Shown: in pieces, positions 12,893-22,290 of the stretch
How the letters are laid out: each line of letters opens with the position of its first letter
Numbering within the stretch: the stretch's first letter is position 1
Translations under genes and position numbers: made by a program
From: Bacteroidota bacterium
GTDB taxonomy: Bacteria > Bacteroidota > Bacteroidia > 2-12-FULL-35-15
NCBI GenBank assembly: GCA_947447995.1
Contig: CANFLQ010000012.1
Location: 1 to 42,295 of the forward strand
Reading direction: 5' to 3'
DNA length: 42,295 bases
Notes under the pieces: generated by a model
Database searches by the model: none
The model's input: the letters and a program-made list of their open reading frames with translations, nothing else
Told to the model about the DNA's origin: nothing

Positions 12893-13621
12893 ATGAATAG
12901 TTTTGAGCGTATAACTAAAAAAATATTTCAAAGTTTTGGAATTCTTATTCGTAAATATAATCCTGCAACAAGTGAAGAATTAAGAAGAATTAAACTTTTA
13001 GAGCATTACAATATTGATTTGGTATTTGATATTGGTGCAAATAAAGGACAATACGCTTCAGGAATTATTGATGCTGGATATAAAAATAAGATAGTTTCTT
13101 TTGAGCCATTATCGTCCGTTTATAATATTATTGAAAATGAAAGTAAAAAATACAGTAATTGGGTTGTAGCTCCACGATGTGCTATTGGGGCTAAAAAAGA
13201 AGAAATTGAAATAAATATATCCAACAATTCGGTGAGTAGCACGTTATTAAATATGATGAATTCTCATATTGAAGCAGCTCCAGATTCTAGAATTATAGGA
13301 AAAGAAAAGGTGCAGGTTTTTCCTCTTGATGAAATTTCAGTAAATTATACTAAGGGAGCGAAAAATATTTTCCTTAAAATTGATGTTCAGGGTTTTGAAG
13401 AAGAAGTGTTAAAAGGTGCAAAATTAATGATTGATAAAGCAAAAGGTGTTGAAATGGAAATTTCTTTAATTCCTTTATATGAAAATCAACATTGGTTATT
13501 ACCGCAAGTGCTTGAATATATGACTAAAAAAGGGTTTTTAATGACTAGTATCGTTCCTGCTTTCACAGATCATAAAACTGGAAAAGTTTTGCAGTGTAAT
13601 GGAATCTTTTTCCGCTCTTAA
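12893..13621 (+). CDS. FkbM-family SAM-dependent methyltransferase
   Basis: This 242-residue protein has the FkbM hallmarks: LVFDIGANKGQYA (43-55) as motif I, VSFEPLSSVY (68-77) as motif II, and IFLKIDVQGFEEEVLKGA (159-176), the strongly conserved block of the family. FkbM proteins O-methylate sugars or other small molecules, often in O-antigen and capsule clusters. It is the first gene of a plus-strand unit with a GT2 glycosyltransferase 8 bases downstream and a flippase after that. A sugar hydroxyl is the likely target, but which one is unknown. Confidence 0.88.
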   Translation: MNSFERITKKIFQSFGILIRKYNPATSEELRRIKLLEHYNIDLVFDIGANKGQYASGIIDAGYKNKIVSFEPLSSVYNIIENESKKYSNWVVAPRCAIGAKKEEIEINISNNSVSSTLLNMMNSHIEAAPDSRIIGKEKVQVFPLDEISVNYTKGAKNIFLKIDVQGFEEEVLKGAKLMIDKAKGVEMEISLIPLYENQHWLLPQVLEYMTKKGFLMTSIVPAFTDHKTGKVLQCNGIFFRS

Positions 13622-13629
13622 ATTTTCAA

Positions 13630-14382
13630 ATGCAGTTTATGCCAAAAATTAGCATTATAACTGTTGTATACAACGCGGAGGGATTGATAGAACGTACTAT
13701 AAAAAGTGTGCTTTGTCAAACATATCCAAGTGTTGAATATGTTATTATTGATGGTGCTTCTACGGATGGAACACTTAAAATTATTGAAAAATACCAATCA
13801 ACTATTAAAACCCTTATTTCTGAAAAAGATACAGGTATTTACGATGCTATGAATAAGGGGTTGGCATTGGCAACAGGCGACTATGTAATCTTTTTAAATG
13901 CCGGCGATGAATTACAATCGGAAACTACACTTGAAAATGTTTTTAAAAATGTAAAGGATGCGGATGTTTATTATGGTAATACCCAAGTGGCAGACCTTAA
14001 CGGCAATATTTTGGGCGAAAGAAGATTGAGTCCTCCAGAAAACTTAACATGGAAAAGTTTTAAGTTTGGTATGACTGTTTCACATCAATCGTTTATTGCA
14101 AAACGGACTTTATGCGAGCCATATAGTATGGATTATCGTTTGGCTTCTGATATTGATTGGATAATTAAAATACTTAAAAAGTCAAATAAGATCGTAAATA
14201 CTCATATTTATATCTCTAAATTTTTAGAAGGTGGGCTTACCAGTAAACTTAGGAAATTAGCTTGGACAGAGCGTTTTTATGTGTTAGTCAAGCATTATGG
14301 CTTTATTCAAACAGTTATAAATCACCTATTTATTGCCATTCGTTTTTTGATTCAAAAAATTACGCGTAAATCAATGACTTAA
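13630..14382 (+). CDS. Family 2 glycosyltransferase
   Basis: This 250-residue GT-A enzyme starts with KISIITVVYNAE and continues with YVIIDGASTDGT and the metal-binding FLNAGDE (DXD equivalent is A-G-D), as in WcaA/PglI-like enzymes annotated for colanic acid and O-antigen synthesis. SDIDWIIKI corresponds to the conserved ED/D-W region near the acceptor site. There is no membrane anchor except weak hydrophobicity near the C-terminus. Two ATGs fit, 13630 and 13639; the second gives the compact family N-terminus MPKISI. It likely adds a sugar to the lipid-linked unit exported by the flippase 19 bases downstream. Confidence 0.88.
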   Translation: MQFMPKISIITVVYNAEGLIERTIKSVLCQTYPSVEYVIIDGASTDGTLKIIEKYQSTIKTLISEKDTGIYDAMNKGLALATGDYVIFLNAGDELQSETTLENVFKNVKDADVYYGNTQVADLNGNILGERRLSPPENLTWKSFKFGMTVSHQSFIAKRTLCEPYSMDYRLASDIDWIIKILKKSNKIVNTHIYISKFLEGGLTSKLRKLAWTERFYVLVKHYGFIQTVINHLFIAIRFLIQKITRKSMT

Positions 14383-14401
14383 TTTTACTGTCATTTCACA
14401 A

Positions 14402-15871
14402 ATGGGATCAATAAAAAAGCAAGGAATTAAAAATGCTATTATCACCTATTCGGGTGTGATGATTGGGTTTGCGAGTCTTATGTTTATTCAACCCAACTTA
14501 TTGAACCCCGAAGAACTAGGTTTAACACGTATTTTAATTGCAGCTGCAAGTTTACTGGCAACCATATTGCCGATGGGCGTTACAGTGGTTACAGCTAAGT
14601 TTTTTCCATACTTTAGAAACAAAGAAAAAAAACACCATGGCTTTTTTGGATTAATGCTGTTGTTCCCGATTGTTGGTGCTATTTTGTGTGGCATTTTAGT
14701 ATATGCTTTTAAAGATAGTATTATACAGCAATACATTCAGCAATCGCTTTTATTCACTCAGTTTTTTGATTTTCTTTTACCTTTTGCAATCATCATAAGT
14801 TTTAATATGGCGCTTAATGCCTATTCTGCTTCACTTTTTAAAACTACGCTCACATTATTGTTTGAAGGTGTAATTACCCGAATACTATTTATTTTATTGT
14901 TGGTTATCTATTATTTACATTGGGTTGATTTGGTTCAATTTATGTATTTATTTGTTGCTATTTATTTATTGCAAGCTATAGCTATGATTATCTATATATA
15001 TGCCATTGATAAACCATCTTTAAAAATTGATTCGGGTCATTTGAGATCAATAGGTGCAGGGAAAATCATCAAATTTGGTTTGCTGTTTACACTTGCAGGT
15101 TTTTCATCCATTAGTTTAAAACATTTAGATACCATCATGATTGGGAAATATTTAAGCCTTGAAAATGTGGGTATTTTTTCTGTTGCTGCATATCTTGCCT
15201 TGGTAATTGAAATTCCATTAACTTCCTTGGAGCGCATCACTAATTTTAAAGTGTCGCAAGCATGGGCGAATAAAGATATTGAAAGTATTAAAAGTATATA
15301 TTATCAATCTGTTAAATACCTAATGCTTATAGGCGGATTGATATTGGTTGGTATTGTTTTAAATATTCACGACCTTTTAAGCTTATTGCCTGCCGCATAT
15401 CAAAAAGGAGAATCCGTTGCAATAATTGCTTGTATTGGAGGTTTTTTTAACATAGCAACGGGAGTTAATACTTCCATAATCTTTACGTCTGATAAATATA
15501 AGTATGGAACTTATTTGTTGTTTTTTTTATTCGTTCTTGCTATAGTTTTAAATATACTTTTTATTCCAAGGTATGGTATTGAGGGGGCTGCAATTGCCAC
15601 AGCTTTATCAGCGGGTATCTATAATTTTTTGAAGTATTTAATAATATTAAAAAATTTTAAAATGCAGCCTTTTGACGGTTCAAGTTTTAAAATAATTTTG
15701 ATAATTCTTATTGTATTTACGGTTTGTTACTTTTTACCATCTTTTGAAAATGTAATAGTATCCATGTTATTTAAGTCGGGCATTATTACAATTATCTATT
15801 TGGGCTTAACCTATTCGCTAAACATTGTGCCCGAGTTTCACAAATACATTCCTTTTATAAAGAGCAAATAA
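14402..15871 (+). CDS. Wzx-type oligosaccharide flippase (second paralogue)
   Basis: This 489-residue MOP-superfamily transporter has around 12-14 transmembrane helices. The N-terminus MGSIKKQGIKNAIITYSG, the KFFPYF-NKEKKHHGF stretch and the FKMQPFDG segment are shared with the flippase at 2329, so the two come from a duplication. It is the last gene of the FkbM-GT2 unit. Having two related flippases at opposite ends of the locus suggests two exported glycans or repeat-unit lipids, or an older duplication with divergent specificities. The gene converges with the M1 peptidase gene across a 44-base repeat-like gap. Confidence 0.86.
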   Translation: MGSIKKQGIKNAIITYSGVMIGFASLMFIQPNLLNPEELGLTRILIAAASLLATILPMGVTVVTAKFFPYFRNKEKKHHGFFGLMLLFPIVGAILCGILVYAFKDSIIQQYIQQSLLFTQFFDFLLPFAIIISFNMALNAYSASLFKTTLTLLFEGVITRILFILLLVIYYLHWVDLVQFMYLFVAIYLLQAIAMIIYIYAIDKPSLKIDSGHLRSIGAGKIIKFGLLFTLAGFSSISLKHLDTIMIGKYLSLENVGIFSVAAYLALVIEIPLTSLERITNFKVSQAWANKDIESIKSIYYQSVKYLMLIGGLILVGIVLNIHDLLSLLPAAYQKGESVAIIACIGGFFNIATGVNTSIIFTSDKYKYGTYLLFFLFVLAIVLNILFIPRYGIEGAAIATALSAGIYNFLKYLIILKNFKMQPFDGSSFKIILIILIVFTVCYFLPSFENVIVSMLFKSGIITIIYLGLTYSLNIVPEFHKYIPFIKSK

Positions 15872-15885
15872 TTATTGGGAAATCA

Positions 15886-15918
15886 GTTTACTATTTACTA
15901 TTTGCTATTCACTAACTA
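15886..15918. repeat. Short ACTATTT-type tandem repeat
   Basis: The gap between two convergent genes is filled by degenerate 7-base words: TTTACTA, TTTACTA, TTTGCTA, TTCACTA. Low-complexity words like this recur in Bacteroidota intergenic regions. No stem or poly-T tract is obvious, so it is not called a terminator. Confidence 0.5.
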
Positions 15919-18900
15919 AAACGCTCTGCTAACTCCAAATACAAAGCGGTATTGAACAAATCCTTTGTCTGTTGCCGGCATTTTATTAAGGAAAAATGGC
16001 ATATCAAAACGTAATATTAAGGGATTGATATTTTGTAATGCCCCAAATTTTTTGATAGTTAAAGCTGATCCCAATCCTGCATCAATGCGTACATCACTCA
16101 TTTTTAATACAGCATCATTTGCATCATTGTAGTTGATCATTCCTGCATCACCAAACAAATAAGTGGTTAGTTTAAAAGTTTTGGTTAACCAATTTTGTTT
16201 TTTTAATTTAATCAATCCACTAAATTCTAGTTCAGCATTTACGGCAGCTCCTGTTTGTCCTTTATAAGTGTATGCAACGCTACCATTACTTTGCATTTGC
16301 GGGGCAAGGTAACCGGAATATCCTCTAAGGTTTAGTCCGCCACCATATTGAAAGTAATTGGTAGTAGCGCCAATGCTTGCCCACGATGGATCAAAAGCTC
16401 CTTGGGAGCGTGTGTATTTATTGTCCATCATTTCTTCAGGATTAGCGCCTGCTAAAAATAAGGAAGATTCTTTCGCCCAATTTGTACCGGTTCCGTATTG
16501 TCCTACTAATCGGGTGTTGAGTAAAAAACGCCACAAACGCGTTCTGTTTATTACATTCAAATTAGCTGTTTGGTAATCGTAATCACTCATAAGTGCAGAA
16601 CTGCGTAATCCTAAATTGATATTTCCTGTTCCGTTTTTATAAATATAAGTATGTTCAAGCCCTATATTTAATGTATTATTCAGCTTGTCGGCTTCCCATT
16701 CTTGTGGTAATAATAAGTAATTCAAATCGTTAATCCTGCTTCTGTACATCGATTTAAAAAATAGATATACTTTATTTTTTCCGGATATGTCTTTTCTGTC
16801 AAAACCAACAGTATAACCGTTTAATCCATCCAATTTTTTTGCCGACAAATAAATAGAGGATTCTTTCATAAATTTGTCGGTAGCGGTTCTGTAATTTACT
16901 CTGAAACTAGCCTGATTGTAGCCCATCTTTGATGTAGAATGGTTCATATCATTTTGTGCTATTCCCATATTAAACCAAAGTGTTGCATCCACAATGTGTT
17001 TGTATTTCATATAGTTGCCATTGATATTTAATCCAAGTTTTATTCCATCATAACCATTGTACCAAATATCGGGGCGGGCAAAAGCTTCGTAAGCCGACCA
17101 ATTAGAAGGGTTGGAGATTTTTGAATCGAATTCAAATTTTATGGGTATGTACCTGCCATTGTTGAGCATATTTACATCTGCCAAGCGTTTACTCGGATCA
17201 ATTGTTATATCTTTTAATTTTTCAGGTAAAGTAATAGTAGTAGTATATGTTGGTTTAATTTTATCCCAGCCTATCCAGCGTGGCAATACAGTGGCGTTTG
17301 TTTTTTTTACAAACCAATTGTTTGGTATATGATAATTGTGAGCATTATCATTATTATCAATCACCGTAAAATCAATAGGCATTTGCATTCCTTTTCTTTC
17401 AAAAGTAATTTCGTATTCATTTTTAGCTTTACCGTGTTTGATGGATTTTATTTTATAGTCGATTGTTTTTGAAGATTCTATCCATTCATCAAAAAACCAG
17501 TTGAGGTCCACTTTTGTGTATTCTATTATTGAATTACGGAAATCCTCAAAATAAGGATGTGCAAATTTCCATTGATTTACATAATGTTGCATAGCACCTA
17601 AAAACAGCGAATCGCCCAAGGTATATTGAAGGTTGTAAAGCATGGTAGCCGTTTTAAAATATACCTGACGGTAACCTCCACCATGTCTTAAAGCTCCACC
17701 GTATCCATCGGAATGTACATTTATATTGGTTTCAACTTCCTTTGCAGCATCATTCATATATCCATTATATACTTCACTGTTTCTGATTAGGTCGGGATCA
17801 CTAAAATGTTCTACATATTTTGATTTTGCAGGCATCTCAATTCGGTATTTGCCATCTATTTTTTCACACGTCCATGCTGTTAAAAATTGAGTAAACCCTT
17901 CATCAAGTGCGGCTCTGTAAGTTTCGTTACTGCCCACCATTCCAAAAAACCAATTGTGGCTTATTTCATGAACCAAAAGGTCGCGGTAGCCTGGGTCATA
18001 GCCCCCATCCAGCGTAAGCATGGGATATTCCATACCATCTTGCGCATCGGCAACTATCATTTTGGGGTAACCGTACATTCCAAAATCTTCGGAATTAACT
18101 TTTATCACTTTAGCAGTATATTCAGCTGCATTTTGCCATCTGGAGGCGTGTGGTTCCTGTACCAGTGAAATACATTTGATACCATTCCATTCTGCTTCAC
18201 CAATACGGTAAGTCGGGTCTGTTGTAAGTGCAAAGTCATGCACATTTTCGGCATGGTATTTCCAGGTTTTTGTTGTGCCATCCGGTTCAATAATTACGGA
18301 AGGTTTTTCATTCCAGGGTTTATCTTTAAATTTTTTGACATCCAATTTTGCAATCAAATCAGCGGGCAACACTTCATTTTTATTTAATAAAGTTCCGGTA
18401 GCATCAACAATGTAATTGTTGGGCAATGTAAATGCAACATCGTACGTTCCAAAATCTCCATAAAATTCATGATCCAAATGCTGGTCGGTATCCCACCCAA
18501 ATTTTTTGTCATATACCGAAATGCGCGGATACCAGTGTACTACATCGTAATGTTTGTAGCCCCAAGCGTTAAAAAGTTTCATTCGGTTTCTAATTGTTCC
18601 ATTATCAAAATAGGTTTTGAAATCAATATTAAGAGTGATGCTTTCATTTGATTTTAGGGGCTTAGGCAGATATACTTTTAAAATAGTATTGTCCTGTTCC
18701 ATTTTTAACTCAACTCCATTTAAGGTGATTTTTGAAACATTGGTGCCAAGACCATCTTCCATGTATTTACCATATTTTAATTTGGTTGCATTGTTCTTAT
18801 AAAGATCCGATAAATAAGAACCTTTTGCTTGCGCATTGCTATATAAATGGAAATAAACAAAAGGCAATTCGTTTGGCGAATTGTTGGTATAGGTTAATTC

Positions 18901-19104
18901 GCTATTCCCGGTAATAATATCTGTTTTGTCGTCAAGCAAAACTATCATTTTATAATGAACATCTTGTTGCCAGTAGCCTTCATAAGGCTTTCTGTTTTTC
19001 CAATAGTATTTATTGGAAGTGCTTTGGTAATTGTTGGGAGGAAATTGAGCAAAAGCATTGGATATACATCCAATTAGCAACAGTGTAATAATTTTAGTTT
19101 TCAT
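15916..19104 (-). CDS. M1-family metallopeptidase with C-terminal Omp85-like outer-membrane barrel
   Basis: This 1062-residue protein has a signal peptide (about 1-19, ending AFAQ). Residues 40-640 are a gluzincin M1 peptidase: GMEYP (357-361, the GxMEN-like substrate site), HEISH (379-383) and ALDEG with E402 18 residues after the second zinc histidine. The catalytic set is complete. From about 685 the sequence turns into alternating aromatic/polar strands with GGLNLRGY (922-929), like the L6 RGF/Y motif of Omp85 proteins, then LFGDAG (983-988), DAGLGSAL, LRFDMPF, and a terminal phenylalanine after VFGVSRAF. That pattern fits a surface-antigen (D15-type) barrel. The length is well above stand-alone M1 enzymes (about 550-650 residues for bacterial secreted forms). 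It is 21 bases downstream of the GH39-like gene. Whether the barrel exports the peptidase is inferred. Confidence 0.85.
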   Translation of the reverse strand: MKTKIITLLLIGCISNAFAQFPPNNYQSTSNKYYWKNRKPYEGYWQQDVHYKMIVLLDDKTDIITGNSELTYTNNSPNELPFVYFHLYSNAQAKGSYLSDLYKNNATKLKYGKYMEDGLGTNVSKITLNGVELKMEQDNTILKVYLPKPLKSNESITLNIDFKTYFDNGTIRNRMKLFNAWGYKHYDVVHWYPRISVYDKKFGWDTDQHLDHEFYGDFGTYDVAFTLPNNYIVDATGTLLNKNEVLPADLIAKLDVKKFKDKPWNEKPSVIIEPDGTTKTWKYHAENVHDFALTTDPTYRIGEAEWNGIKCISLVQEPHASRWQNAAEYTAKVIKVNSEDFGMYGYPKMIVADAQDGMEYPMLTLDGGYDPGYRDLLVHEISHNWFFGMVGSNETYRAALDEGFTQFLTAWTCEKIDGKYRIEMPAKSKYVEHFSDPDLIRNSEVYNGYMNDAAKEVETNINVHSDGYGGALRHGGGYRQVYFKTATMLYNLQYTLGDSLFLGAMQHYVNQWKFAHPYFEDFRNSIIEYTKVDLNWFFDEWIESSKTIDYKIKSIKHGKAKNEYEITFERKGMQMPIDFTVIDNNDNAHNYHIPNNWFVKKTNATVLPRWIGWDKIKPTYTTTITLPEKLKDITIDPSKRLADVNMLNNGRYIPIKFEFDSKISNPSNWSAYEAFARPDIWYNGYDGIKLGLNINGNYMKYKHIVDATLWFNMGIAQNDMNHSTSKMGYNQASFRVNYRTATDKFMKESSIYLSAKKLDGLNGYTVGFDRKDISGKNKVYLFFKSMYRSRINDLNYLLLPQEWEADKLNNTLNIGLEHTYIYKNGTGNINLGLRSSALMSDYDYQTANLNVINRTRLWRFLLNTRLVGQYGTGTNWAKESSLFLAGANPEEMMDNKYTRSQGAFDPSWASIGATTNYFQYGGGLNLRGYSGYLAPQMQSNGSVAYTYKGQTGAAVNAELEFSGLIKLKKQNWLTKTFKLTTYLFGDAGMINYNDANDAVLKMSDVRIDAGLGSALTIKKFGALQNINPLILRFDMPFFLNKMPATDKGFVQYRFVFGVSRAF

Positions 19105-19125: not shown

Positions 19126-22100
19126 TTAATTTTTAATAATTTTGGTCAAATATATTTTAGATTCTATTTTTAATTTTAAATAATAAATTCCATTACTGAA
19201 TTCAGTAATATCAATTTCTATTTCGTTATCCAAACATAACATATTTTTTTTGAAAATTATTTTCGAATTAGAATCGTAAAGTTGGATATAACACGGATGG
19301 CTAATTTTGTTGCGTTTTGCAATTGTAAATTTTCCTGAATTAGGGTTTGGATAAATGTAAATCTCACCCCAATTTGTAGTTTCAATTATATCAGAATTGA
19401 GTAGTACAGTTATAGCCGTTGAATCACTATTTGAGCAATTATTAGTGTCAGTATATGTATATTTTAAATAGTGTGTGCCAACACCAGATATGGATGGGAC
19501 AAAATTAGTAGAATTAACACCTTTTCCAGAATATATACCTCCGCTTGGAGTGCCGAGCGGCATCGCAATTGTTTTCGAGTTGTATAATACAGTGTCAGGA
19601 AAAAATGCATCAATGTTAACTATGGGAGTTTTATTAATAATAAGTGATAAAGTTACAATGCTATCACAACCGTGAATAGATTTTAGAATATTGTTAAATG
19701 AGCCTGTCCTTGTTCGGAATTTGCCATTGATAAAAATACTATCGCCTTCACAAATTGAAACGGTGGAAATAGAACTATTAGTAACCCATGTAAATAGTTC
19801 TATTATGGATATGCTATCATTTCCTGCAACTGTTTTTAACGAATCGGTATATGTACCAGCTAAATGCCTGTATACTCCATTAATTAAGATACTATCGCCT
19901 GTGCAAATATAAATGGAAGAATAGCTGGTAAAAATAGGTTTAATTGAAAGTGTGATAGATACAATACTGTCACAATCATTTATTGTTTGTAAGGTATCGT
20001 TATACCTACCTGCTGTATACCTAAAAGTGCCATTAATTAGTATTCTATCTCCTTTATTAAGGGTTATGTTTTTAGTGGTGATAAAAGTAGGATTTATGAA
20101 AATAGTTGTTTTTACTATAGAGTCAATATGTTGATACGATTTTAATGTATCTGTGTAATTGCCAGATTTTTTGCGCCAATTATTATTAATTAAAACGCTG
20201 TCGCCCGAGCAAATTTTAAGTGTGTCAAATTTAGAAAAATGAACTTTAAAATTGGAGCAAATTGTATCACTAAAACACTTGTTTTTTGCAATTAAACAAA
20301 CAGTATATGTTGAAGATGAATAATTAAGGCTAAGCGTATCTTTATTTAAAAATGAAGAAAAATTATTAATGTTCCATCGAATTGAATCGTAATGCGTGCT
20401 GATATTTGTAAGGCTAAAAGAGTTTGGATTTAATGTATATGAAAAACCAGCAATAGGTTTAATGTTAGAGGTTGTTGCTGTTTTTGTGAGTTTAATTAAA
20501 TCCGTAAATGGAGGTTGGGCGCTTAAAGAAATAACATTATTTAGTAAATCTACTTTCCCTGAACTTATTAAAGTAAGTGAATCTGCTACTCGATATACAT
20601 TGTAAGAATAATTATCACATTGTAATAATTTATTCAAATTAATTCGATAACCTTTTGCCATTGATGAGTGGTCCGAAATTAAAATGTTTATGCTGTCTCC
20701 GGTAATTGATTTTCCTGCACAAATAGTTTTTCCTAAACTGTCGGCGCCACTTGTTGGTAATTTAAGAGGAGTTCTGTTTAGTTGATTGATGGCACGAAAT
20801 GTTGTTCCTGAATAATTGTATTTGCCATTTGATTCATCATACAATCCAAAAAGATATTCGTCTGTACGATACCAAAATATTTTATCTGGTCCATTATTTT
20901 GCCAGTAATTTAGTACGGAAGCAGCTTGCGATGCTATATATAAATTATTATGCCAAACGTTCAAATGGTTACTGTTGCCATCGTATTGCAAGGTATTTAC
21001 TTCGGTAACATATCTTTTGGTTTGCAATAGATTTCGTGTTGTAAGCATCGATTTTGCTAATGAATCGGCATACTTTAAGTGATAAGGGTTGGAGGTGTAA
21101 TAAATATGGTATGAAAAAAAATCTAATGGTAAATTACTTGTTTTAACAGAATCTAAAAATGTATTCAGAAAATTTGTATTAAATAAACTTGCGATAGCAG
21201 GTCCTCCAACAATTAATGTATTATCATAATTTTTTAATTTTTGCGATGTAATTCGGTATAACTTCACATATTGTGTTGGAGTTCCATTCCATTGTTCATT
21301 TAGGTCGGGTTCATTCCAAATCTCCCATTCTTTTATATTGTAATTGAAACCGTTATTCCAACCAGCGTTATAGTGTTTTACAATGTTTAAACACACATCG
21401 GCCCATTTGTTCATATCTGAAGGTGGTGTATTGTGCGTAGGATTAGCTTCATAGCTTTGCCCTAATCGAAACAGTATTTTACATCCTGCATTAATGGATG
21501 TTGTAATTGCTAGGTCTGTTGAACTAAAATTATATGCGTTAGGGTCAGATGCATTTTTACTCATGTCAGGAAAAATTGTTGAAATGTCGCATGCCCCGTA
21601 ATAATCATGAGTTCGAACATAGTTAATTCCTGTTTGTTTAAAATTGTTGGTTAAGTCAACACTGCCAGTTCGTTTAGGTCCAACATTTGTTCCCATATAA
21701 TTTGTTATGTTTCCCCAATTTCCTGCAATGTCAATATTGAAATTCGACCAAGTAGTATCCTTTACTTCTGTTAAGGAAAAATTATCAAAATAAGCATTGC
21801 CTCCCGTTCCTGTAAAAAAAATAAAAATGGATAGTCCTGTTGTATTTCCTGCTGGTACAGTAAATCTGGATTGAAATTTTTTCCAGTTAGTTGTTCCATT
21901 TACAGCAATTAAACCTGTTTCATAATTAACTTGATTTCCATTTGTGAAATTAAAATAGGGGAAAACATTTCCTATAAGATTATCGGTTTTAACATAATAC
22001 TCTAATAAATAATTTTTAAGTGGTTGTACAGCAACGGATTGAACAACACCTGCAGAAACAGTATTCGTATTATTTATGGTAATGTTTAAAGATGAATTTC

Positions 22101-22290
22101 CACTGTACTTTACAGTGTTTACTGTTGATACCGTAGCCCCCGTTGCATTTATTTTAGACCAATTTGTTGTTCCGTTTTCAAATCCTCTATTAAGTAATAA
22201 GTTTTGCGCTTGCATCCAGTTGGATGTAAGTAACAACGTAAATATAAAATATAATTTAGAGCTCAATTTTTTTTGTTTTTTAATTTCCAC
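19126..22290 (-). CDS. T9SS-exported GH39-like glycoside hydrolase with CBM, PKD and repeat region
   Basis: This 1054-residue protein starts with GTG. Layout: signal peptide (1-29, ending MQAQ); CBM4/9-type carbohydrate-binding module (30-175); TIM-barrel glycosidase (about 180-510) with the acid/base in WEIWNEPD (E327) and probable nucleophile in RYVTEVN (E430), closest to GH39 xylosidase/iduronidase-like enzymes; PKD-like domain (610-685); four 50-residue repeats (690-885) with the pattern C-GDS--ING--R--G-Y-D-L---CDSI; an Ig-like domain (890-965); and a T9SS sorting domain (975-1054; IYPNPNSGKFTI, NGIYYLKL). It is thus likely secreted through the outer membrane. The start overlaps the upstream GT2 gene by 11 bases. 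The sugar substrate is unknown. Confidence 0.82.
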   Translation of the reverse strand: MEIKKQKKLSSKLYFIFTLLLTSNWMQAQNLLLNRGFENGTTNWSKINATGATVSTVNTVKYSGNSSLNITINNTNTVSAGVVQSVAVQPLKNYLLEYYVKTDNLIGNVFPYFNFTNGNQVNYETGLIAVNGTTNWKKFQSRFTVPAGNTTGLSIFIFFTGTGGNAYFDNFSLTEVKDTTWSNFNIDIAGNWGNITNYMGTNVGPKRTGSVDLTNNFKQTGINYVRTHDYYGACDISTIFPDMSKNASDPNAYNFSSTDLAITTSINAGCKILFRLGQSYEANPTHNTPPSDMNKWADVCLNIVKHYNAGWNNGFNYNIKEWEIWNEPDLNEQWNGTPTQYVKLYRITSQKLKNYDNTLIVGGPAIASLFNTNFLNTFLDSVKTSNLPLDFFSYHIYYTSNPYHLKYADSLAKSMLTTRNLLQTKRYVTEVNTLQYDGNSNHLNVWHNNLYIASQAASVLNYWQNNGPDKIFWYRTDEYLFGLYDESNGKYNYSGTTFRAINQLNRTPLKLPTSGADSLGKTICAGKSITGDSINILISDHSSMAKGYRINLNKLLQCDNYSYNVYRVADSLTLISSGKVDLLNNVISLSAQPPFTDLIKLTKTATTSNIKPIAGFSYTLNPNSFSLTNISTHYDSIRWNINNFSSFLNKDTLSLNYSSSTYTVCLIAKNKCFSDTICSNFKVHFSKFDTLKICSGDSVLINNNWRKKSGNYTDTLKSYQHIDSIVKTTIFINPTFITTKNITLNKGDRILINGTFRYTAGRYNDTLQTINDCDSIVSITLSIKPIFTSYSSIYICTGDSILINGVYRHLAGTYTDSLKTVAGNDSISIIELFTWVTNSSISTVSICEGDSIFINGKFRTRTGSFNNILKSIHGCDSIVTLSLIINKTPIVNIDAFFPDTVLYNSKTIAMPLGTPSGGIYSGKGVNSTNFVPSISGVGTHYLKYTYTDTNNCSNSDSTAITVLLNSDIIETTNWGEIYIYPNPNSGKFTIAKRNKISHPCYIQLYDSNSKIIFKKNMLCLDNEIEIDITEFSNGIYYLKLKIESKIYLTKIIKN

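Follow-up and report, generated by a model that had tools for sequence, protein, structure and literature searches.

An M1 aminopeptidase module fused to a POTRA-less Omp85-type barrel in Bacteroidota, probably anchored at the outer membrane and facing the periplasm

Computational analysis of a 42,295-nucleotide stretch of DNA from a Bacteroidota bacterium (hereafter, the window) established that a single open reading frame, running from position 19104 to 15916 on the minus strand (15916..19104; 1062 amino acids plus stop), combines the architecture and catalytic set of an M1 aminopeptidase with an Omp85 fold bearing the lid-lock motifs, without any POTRA domain. From these features we infer the topology, the activity and the substrates of the protein, which is probably an aminopeptidase anchored in the outer membrane by its barrel and facing the periplasm.

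The polypeptide begins with a signal peptide (MKTKIITLLLIGCISNAFA, residues 1-19; 19048..19104, on the minus strand like all features given below unless specified), of type I by appearance, with cleavage between A-F-A and Q. A lipobox-like sequence (LIGC) ending at C13 made a lipoprotein a candidate, which was rejected because this cysteine varies among homologues. The M1 module follows (residues 20-650; 17155..19047). It is matched by PF01433 (E=5e-13, above the Pfam cut-off), and comprises an N-terminal beta domain, a thermolysin-like catalytic domain and a beta-sandwich domain III. Foldseek searches with the full-length model returned M1 proteins only, among the matches listed, with insulin-regulated aminopeptidase (IRAP), ERAP1 and ERAP2 at E about 1e-21 to 1e-18. 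The full M1 active site noticed in the earlier sequence-only reading is present and invariant: the HExxH-(18)-E zinc site is complete, and H379, E380 and H383 of the HEISH motif (379-383; 17956..17970) as well as the third zinc ligand E402 (17899..17901) are found in 52/52 relatives. G357, E359, P361 and K484 are also invariant among these 52, the first three belonging to GMEYP (357-361; 18022..18036), the equivalent of the GxMEN exopeptidase motif in which Asn is replaced by Tyr. Y482 (17659..17661; 52/52) is presumably the transition-state tyrosine, an assignment made by motif, VYFK resembling the Y-x-K-G of M1 enzymes. Given the invariance of the catalytic and zinc-binding residues, the M1 module is expected from its sequence to be an active aminopeptidase.

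The C-terminal half is an Omp85-type barrel, on the agreement of fold, profile match, motif position and invariance. AlphaFold, fed with a 52-row alignment and modeling a single chain that ignores membrane, lipid and partners, predicted the entire protein with a pLDDT of 88.6 and a pTM of 0.83 and the isolated barrel with 86.1 and 0.82, and folded residues 672-1062 (15919..17091) into 16 strands, the first at 672-683 and the last at 1055-1058. The barrel had been proposed to span residues 685-1062; its existence stands, while its start is moved to about residue 672. A 76-residue loop (876-951; 16252..16479), the most conserved long loop of the barrel, connects strands 11 and 12, which is the position of L6 in Omp85 proteins, and carries LRGY (926-929; 16318..16329), so that the model has the 16 strands and the RGY motif within L6 that had been predicted. 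FGDAG (984-988; 16141..16155) lies on strand 13 (977-991). In the alignment of homologues R927, F984, D986 and G988 are present in 52/52, R927 of LRGY and D986 of FGDAG being the Omp85 lid-lock pair. The two motifs correspond to the halves of the lid-lock seen in Omp85 structures, where (V/I)RG(Y/F) at the L6 tip is paired with (F/G)xDxG on strand 13 (PMC4490367), and BamA of F. johnsoniae likewise has LRGY (PMC12611786). LFGDAG (983-988), FDMPF (1033-1037) and the terminal residue Phe1062, which together with LRGY had drawn attention to this region, are where they were reported to be, and D1034, P1036 and F1062 are invariant across the 52 homologues as well. The invariance of all these positions, from the zinc site to the last residue, argues that the motifs of the protein are not chance matches.

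Comparisons beyond the family point the same way. The 50 top PDB matches to the barrel alone were all BamA or TamA (Foldseek; E-values start at 2e-10, the probability is 1.00 and TM-scores, about 0.24-0.56, are moderate); a viral structure library yielded a single significant match, a protein without a name, and a PDB sequence search with the barrel gave no matches. A profile of 42 homologous C-termini aligned by hhalign with 30 PF01103 barrels of Bacteroidota (P=1.6e-6, probability 90), LRGY falling on the Omp85 LRGY and FGDAG on an F-x-D-x-G-like stretch, whereas TonB barrels (P=0.45), PorP/SprF (P=0.83) and a reversed profile (P=0.13) failed to match. The PF01103 search suggested along with the sequence-only reading came out negative: neither this model nor any other in Pfam matches the barrel, PF01103 also misses the 42 barrel homologues, and homology was recovered by profile-profile comparison and fold only. 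The miss reflects how far a single model can detect and is no defining biological feature, the defining feature of Omp85/TpsB proteins being a 16-stranded barrel of the Omp85 type (PMC4104836). It is also what could be held in favor of a different kind of 16-strand barrel carrying an RGY motif by chance, which is highly improbable given that fold, profile, motif position and invariance concur on Omp85 and that the control barrels do not match. The core of the earlier proposal, an M1 peptidase fused to an Omp85-like barrel, is thereby strongly upheld: the strand number, the motifs of L6 and strand 13, the BamA/TamA hits and the specificity of the profile comparison all speak for it.

No POTRA domain separates the two modules. 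Residues 651-671 (17092..17154) form the junction from M1 domain III to strand 1 and would not accommodate one, and no Pfam POTRA model matches the 1062-residue protein. One POTRA contains two helices; none of four residues or more occurs at 543-671 in the AlphaFold model. Free-standing M1 homologues (about 630 amino acids), which together with PF01433 and Foldseek delimit the M1 module, mostly stop at the equivalents of residues 659-669, and in free-standing barrels the barrel sequence starts straight after the signal peptide, at the equivalent of about residue 669. Since the free homologues end and start at a common junction, the M1 and barrel modules must abut. The predicted confidence of the junction depends on the M1 module (pLDDT 91-95 in the whole protein vs about 58-70 in the barrel-only model), and this fall when M1 is absent suggests that the junction packs on M1 and is not threaded through the lumen.

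The M1 module lies N-terminal to strand 1. In the usual orientation of Omp85 barrels, L6 faces the exterior and both termini of the barrel face the periplasm, which would place M1 in the periplasm. Most long loops follow odd strands (19, 20, 76, 14 and 15 residues), as this orientation would predict, and the opposite turns are mostly short. The periplasmic turns do not exceed the outer loops in conservation (p=0.52), hence conservation lends no independent support to docking at the periplasmic face. Among Omp85 structures, the FxDxG lid-lock is that of the closed BamA and TamA barrels, and GxDxG that of FhaC translocases, whose barrel is wider (PMC4490367); the fusion has the FxDxG form. Finally, a 2024 study located the patatin domain of the type Vd prototype PlpD in the periplasm (PMC11116518). 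A periplasm-facing M1 module is preferred for these reasons, namely its position, the ordered junction, the FxDxG lid-lock and the PlpD precedent.

The sequence-only reading had instead raised the possibility of a self-exported surface peptidase, by analogy with type Vd secretion. Passage of M1 through or with its own barrel to the cell surface would agree with the older view of PlpD, with the many surface enzymes of Bacteroidota and with the T9SS-secreted glycosidase encoded next door. The type Vd precedent has since been overturned by the periplasmic location of PlpD's own enzyme domain (PMC11116518), and the remaining features do not support export either: strand 1 comes after M1, the lid-lock of L6 has the FxDxG form found in closed barrels, and the model predicts a globular M1 of roughly 630 residues joined to the barrel by an ordered junction. 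The glycosidase (19126..22290), a GH39-like protein with a carbohydrate-binding domain and a Por_Secre_tail, is indeed adjacent, upstream on the same strand across a 21-bp gap; a comparison of 55 related loci shows no conservation of this neighbor, and we regard it as incidental and outside the system. A T9SS operon was dropped on the same ground. A Pfam profile search found no Por_Secre_tail on the fusion itself. Altogether, self-export appears distinctly unlikely.

The other neighbors can be described briefly. Near the fusion gene, the rest of the window encodes glycosyltransferases, a flippase-like protein, recR and an RsmB/F methyltransferase. On the opposite strand, 12893-15871 carries an FkbM methyltransferase, a glycosyltransferase and a MatE/polysaccharide flippase; the flippase recurs close to the fusion in as many as 12 related loci and the glycosyltransferase in as many as seven. 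In 20 close relatives among the 55 loci, the next gene downstream encodes a TPR-like protein that bears a signal peptide (L002:9327-10157, with equivalents in L001-L023); such a protein was not found in the genome of the 15916-19104 gene by a search run without a positive control.

The preferred, periplasm-facing reading entails a simple route. The fusion polypeptide would cross the inner membrane via Sec, as its signal peptide suggests, and BAM would put the barrel into the outer membrane. M1 would fold in the periplasm and likely remain docked on the periplasmic mouth of the barrel, which the L6 lid would shut, leaving the barrel to act mainly as an anchor and platform. An active aminopeptidase would thereby be held on the periplasmic side of the outer membrane, where candidate substrates are peptides entering through that membrane or released in envelope protein turnover.

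A homologue search of genome contigs, with the best 80 of 140 candidate stretches kept, located the fusion in 80 genomes or more, almost all of them labeled Bacteroidota, and as a single open reading frame in dozens of independent assemblies; a few genomes labeled Phycisphaerales or Sphingomonadales may be misbinned. The genome under study encodes a second M1-barrel fusion of a different class (L082:187-3210, minus strand, 1007 amino acids), with an intact HEVGH site and a barrel that lacks RGY but keeps F-x-D-x-G. Also present in this genome is L086, a fusion of a WD40/PD40 propeller-like protein with a PF01103 barrel, which looks like a member of the known WD40-Omp85 subfamily. A rapid maximum-likelihood phylogeny of the M1 modules groups class A, which includes the 15916-19104 gene, in one clade (100) and class B in another (100), and nests the free M1 group in a clade with other fused forms. 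Free barrels are sister to class A barrels in the barrel tree (SH-aLRT 95). A free M1 and a free barrel are both present in 14/14 comparable genomes of family f24. Fused and free barrels both occur in family f22, so that the two are not a clean split pair, which weakens a simple split-pair (Rosetta stone) history. No M1 gene was seen beside free barrels among the free-barrel loci read. These patterns are most simply explained by an ancient fusion that subsequently lost one module or the other, with the rooting of the trees uncertain. The free barrels themselves (L088-L116, from f24 and f22 genomes) consist of a signal peptide and a barrel with LRGY kept and FxDxG mostly kept, and most f24 free-barrel loci read lie between acetate kinase and NUDIX/GreA genes.

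Class B fusions from genomes of families f4 and f5, which share the taxonomic class of the genome under study (L207 and L273-L282; 937-975 amino acids), lack HExxH in 11/11 full frames; the GxMEY stretch is gone too from the aligned frames, and the barrel is retained. These proteins are apparently pseudo-peptidases, judging from their residues, that a flavobacteria-like lineage has retained in fused form. In most class B barrels D-x-G is preserved at the strand-13 position, and most miss RGY in L6. The maintenance of the barrel where the active site is lost indicates that the use of the M1-barrel scaffold outlives catalysis. It would also fit a barrel that is still a BamA/TamA-like assembly factor or translocase, with the peptidase in the place of POTRA processing or quality-controlling clients at the periplasmic mouth, as would the invariant insertase-type lid-lock of the fusion and the conservation of L6 above the strands. 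POTRA domains are absent, however, PlpD illustrates an Omp85 barrel reused without an assembly function, and no BAM gene was found among the neighbors at related loci, which leaves such a role unlikely. Spelled out further, and with the same small probability, a POTRA-less Omp85 machine could insert or pass polypeptides while M1 trims client N-termini at the barrel mouth, and the same module could be purely peptide-binding, hence POTRA-like, in the flavobacteria-like lineage with the dead site.

Until PlpD's enzyme domain was located in the periplasm, enzyme-Omp85 fusions were regarded as autotransporters. The occurrence of another, unrelated enzyme on an Omp85 scaffold, POTRA-less and widespread in Bacteroidota, suggests that this scaffold is repeatedly reused as an outer-membrane anchor for periplasmic enzymes, and offers a concrete system in which to study the role of an Omp85 barrel that lacks POTRA. 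Annotation hides the fusion, for its barrel is under Pfam detection and its M1 relatives are labeled only 'M1 family metallopeptidase'. The natural series of fused active, fused inactive, free peptidase and free barrel forms makes the question experimentally tractable.

Each half of the fusion has well-known counterparts. M1 aminopeptidases such as ERAP1, IRAP, LTA4H and PepN share with it domains I-III and the catalytic set, but they display GAMEN where the fusion has GMEY, and end in a C-terminal helical domain where the fusion has its barrel. BamA and TamA have the same barrel fold, an L6 with RGY and FxDxG on strand 13, whereas the fusion has no POTRA, bears an enzyme and possesses a barrel that Pfam does not detect. 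In overall design the fusion resembles the patatin-Omp85 proteins PlpD and FplA (type Vd), in which a signal peptide, an N-terminal enzyme and a C-terminal 16-strand Omp85 barrel also form one chain; their enzyme is a patatin instead of an M1 zinc aminopeptidase, and the fusion has no POTRA between enzyme and barrel. PlpD forms a dimer. Of the traits that define type Vd, the patatin-like passenger is replaced here by M1, and surface export of the passenger is lacking in the PlpD prototype itself (PMC11116518). The PlpD paper is worded so as to require at least one POTRA for Omp85/TpsB membership, which PMC4104836 does not. The 'noNterm' Omp85 proteins, barrels without an N-terminal domain, are matched by the free-standing sister barrels, and differ from the fusion by its M1 module. 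Omp85 'Metallo' proteins (PF00149 plus barrel) resemble the fusion in carrying a metal-dependent enzyme on a barrel without POTRA, but this enzyme is not an M1 peptidase. PF00149 is the calcineurin-like metallophosphoesterase family, so that the 'Metallo' label may mislead on peptidase-Omp85 fusions. It was from PF00149 that these proteins were called metalloproteases (PMC4104836). Our search of the open-access literature found no description of a fusion between M1 (PF01433) and Omp85 (PF01103). Heinz and Lithgow (2014) listed ten Omp85 subfamilies, including patatin, WD40, 'Metallo' and noNterm, none of them with M1 (PMC4104836), and M1-Omp85 apparently constitutes an undescribed subfamily outside that published list.
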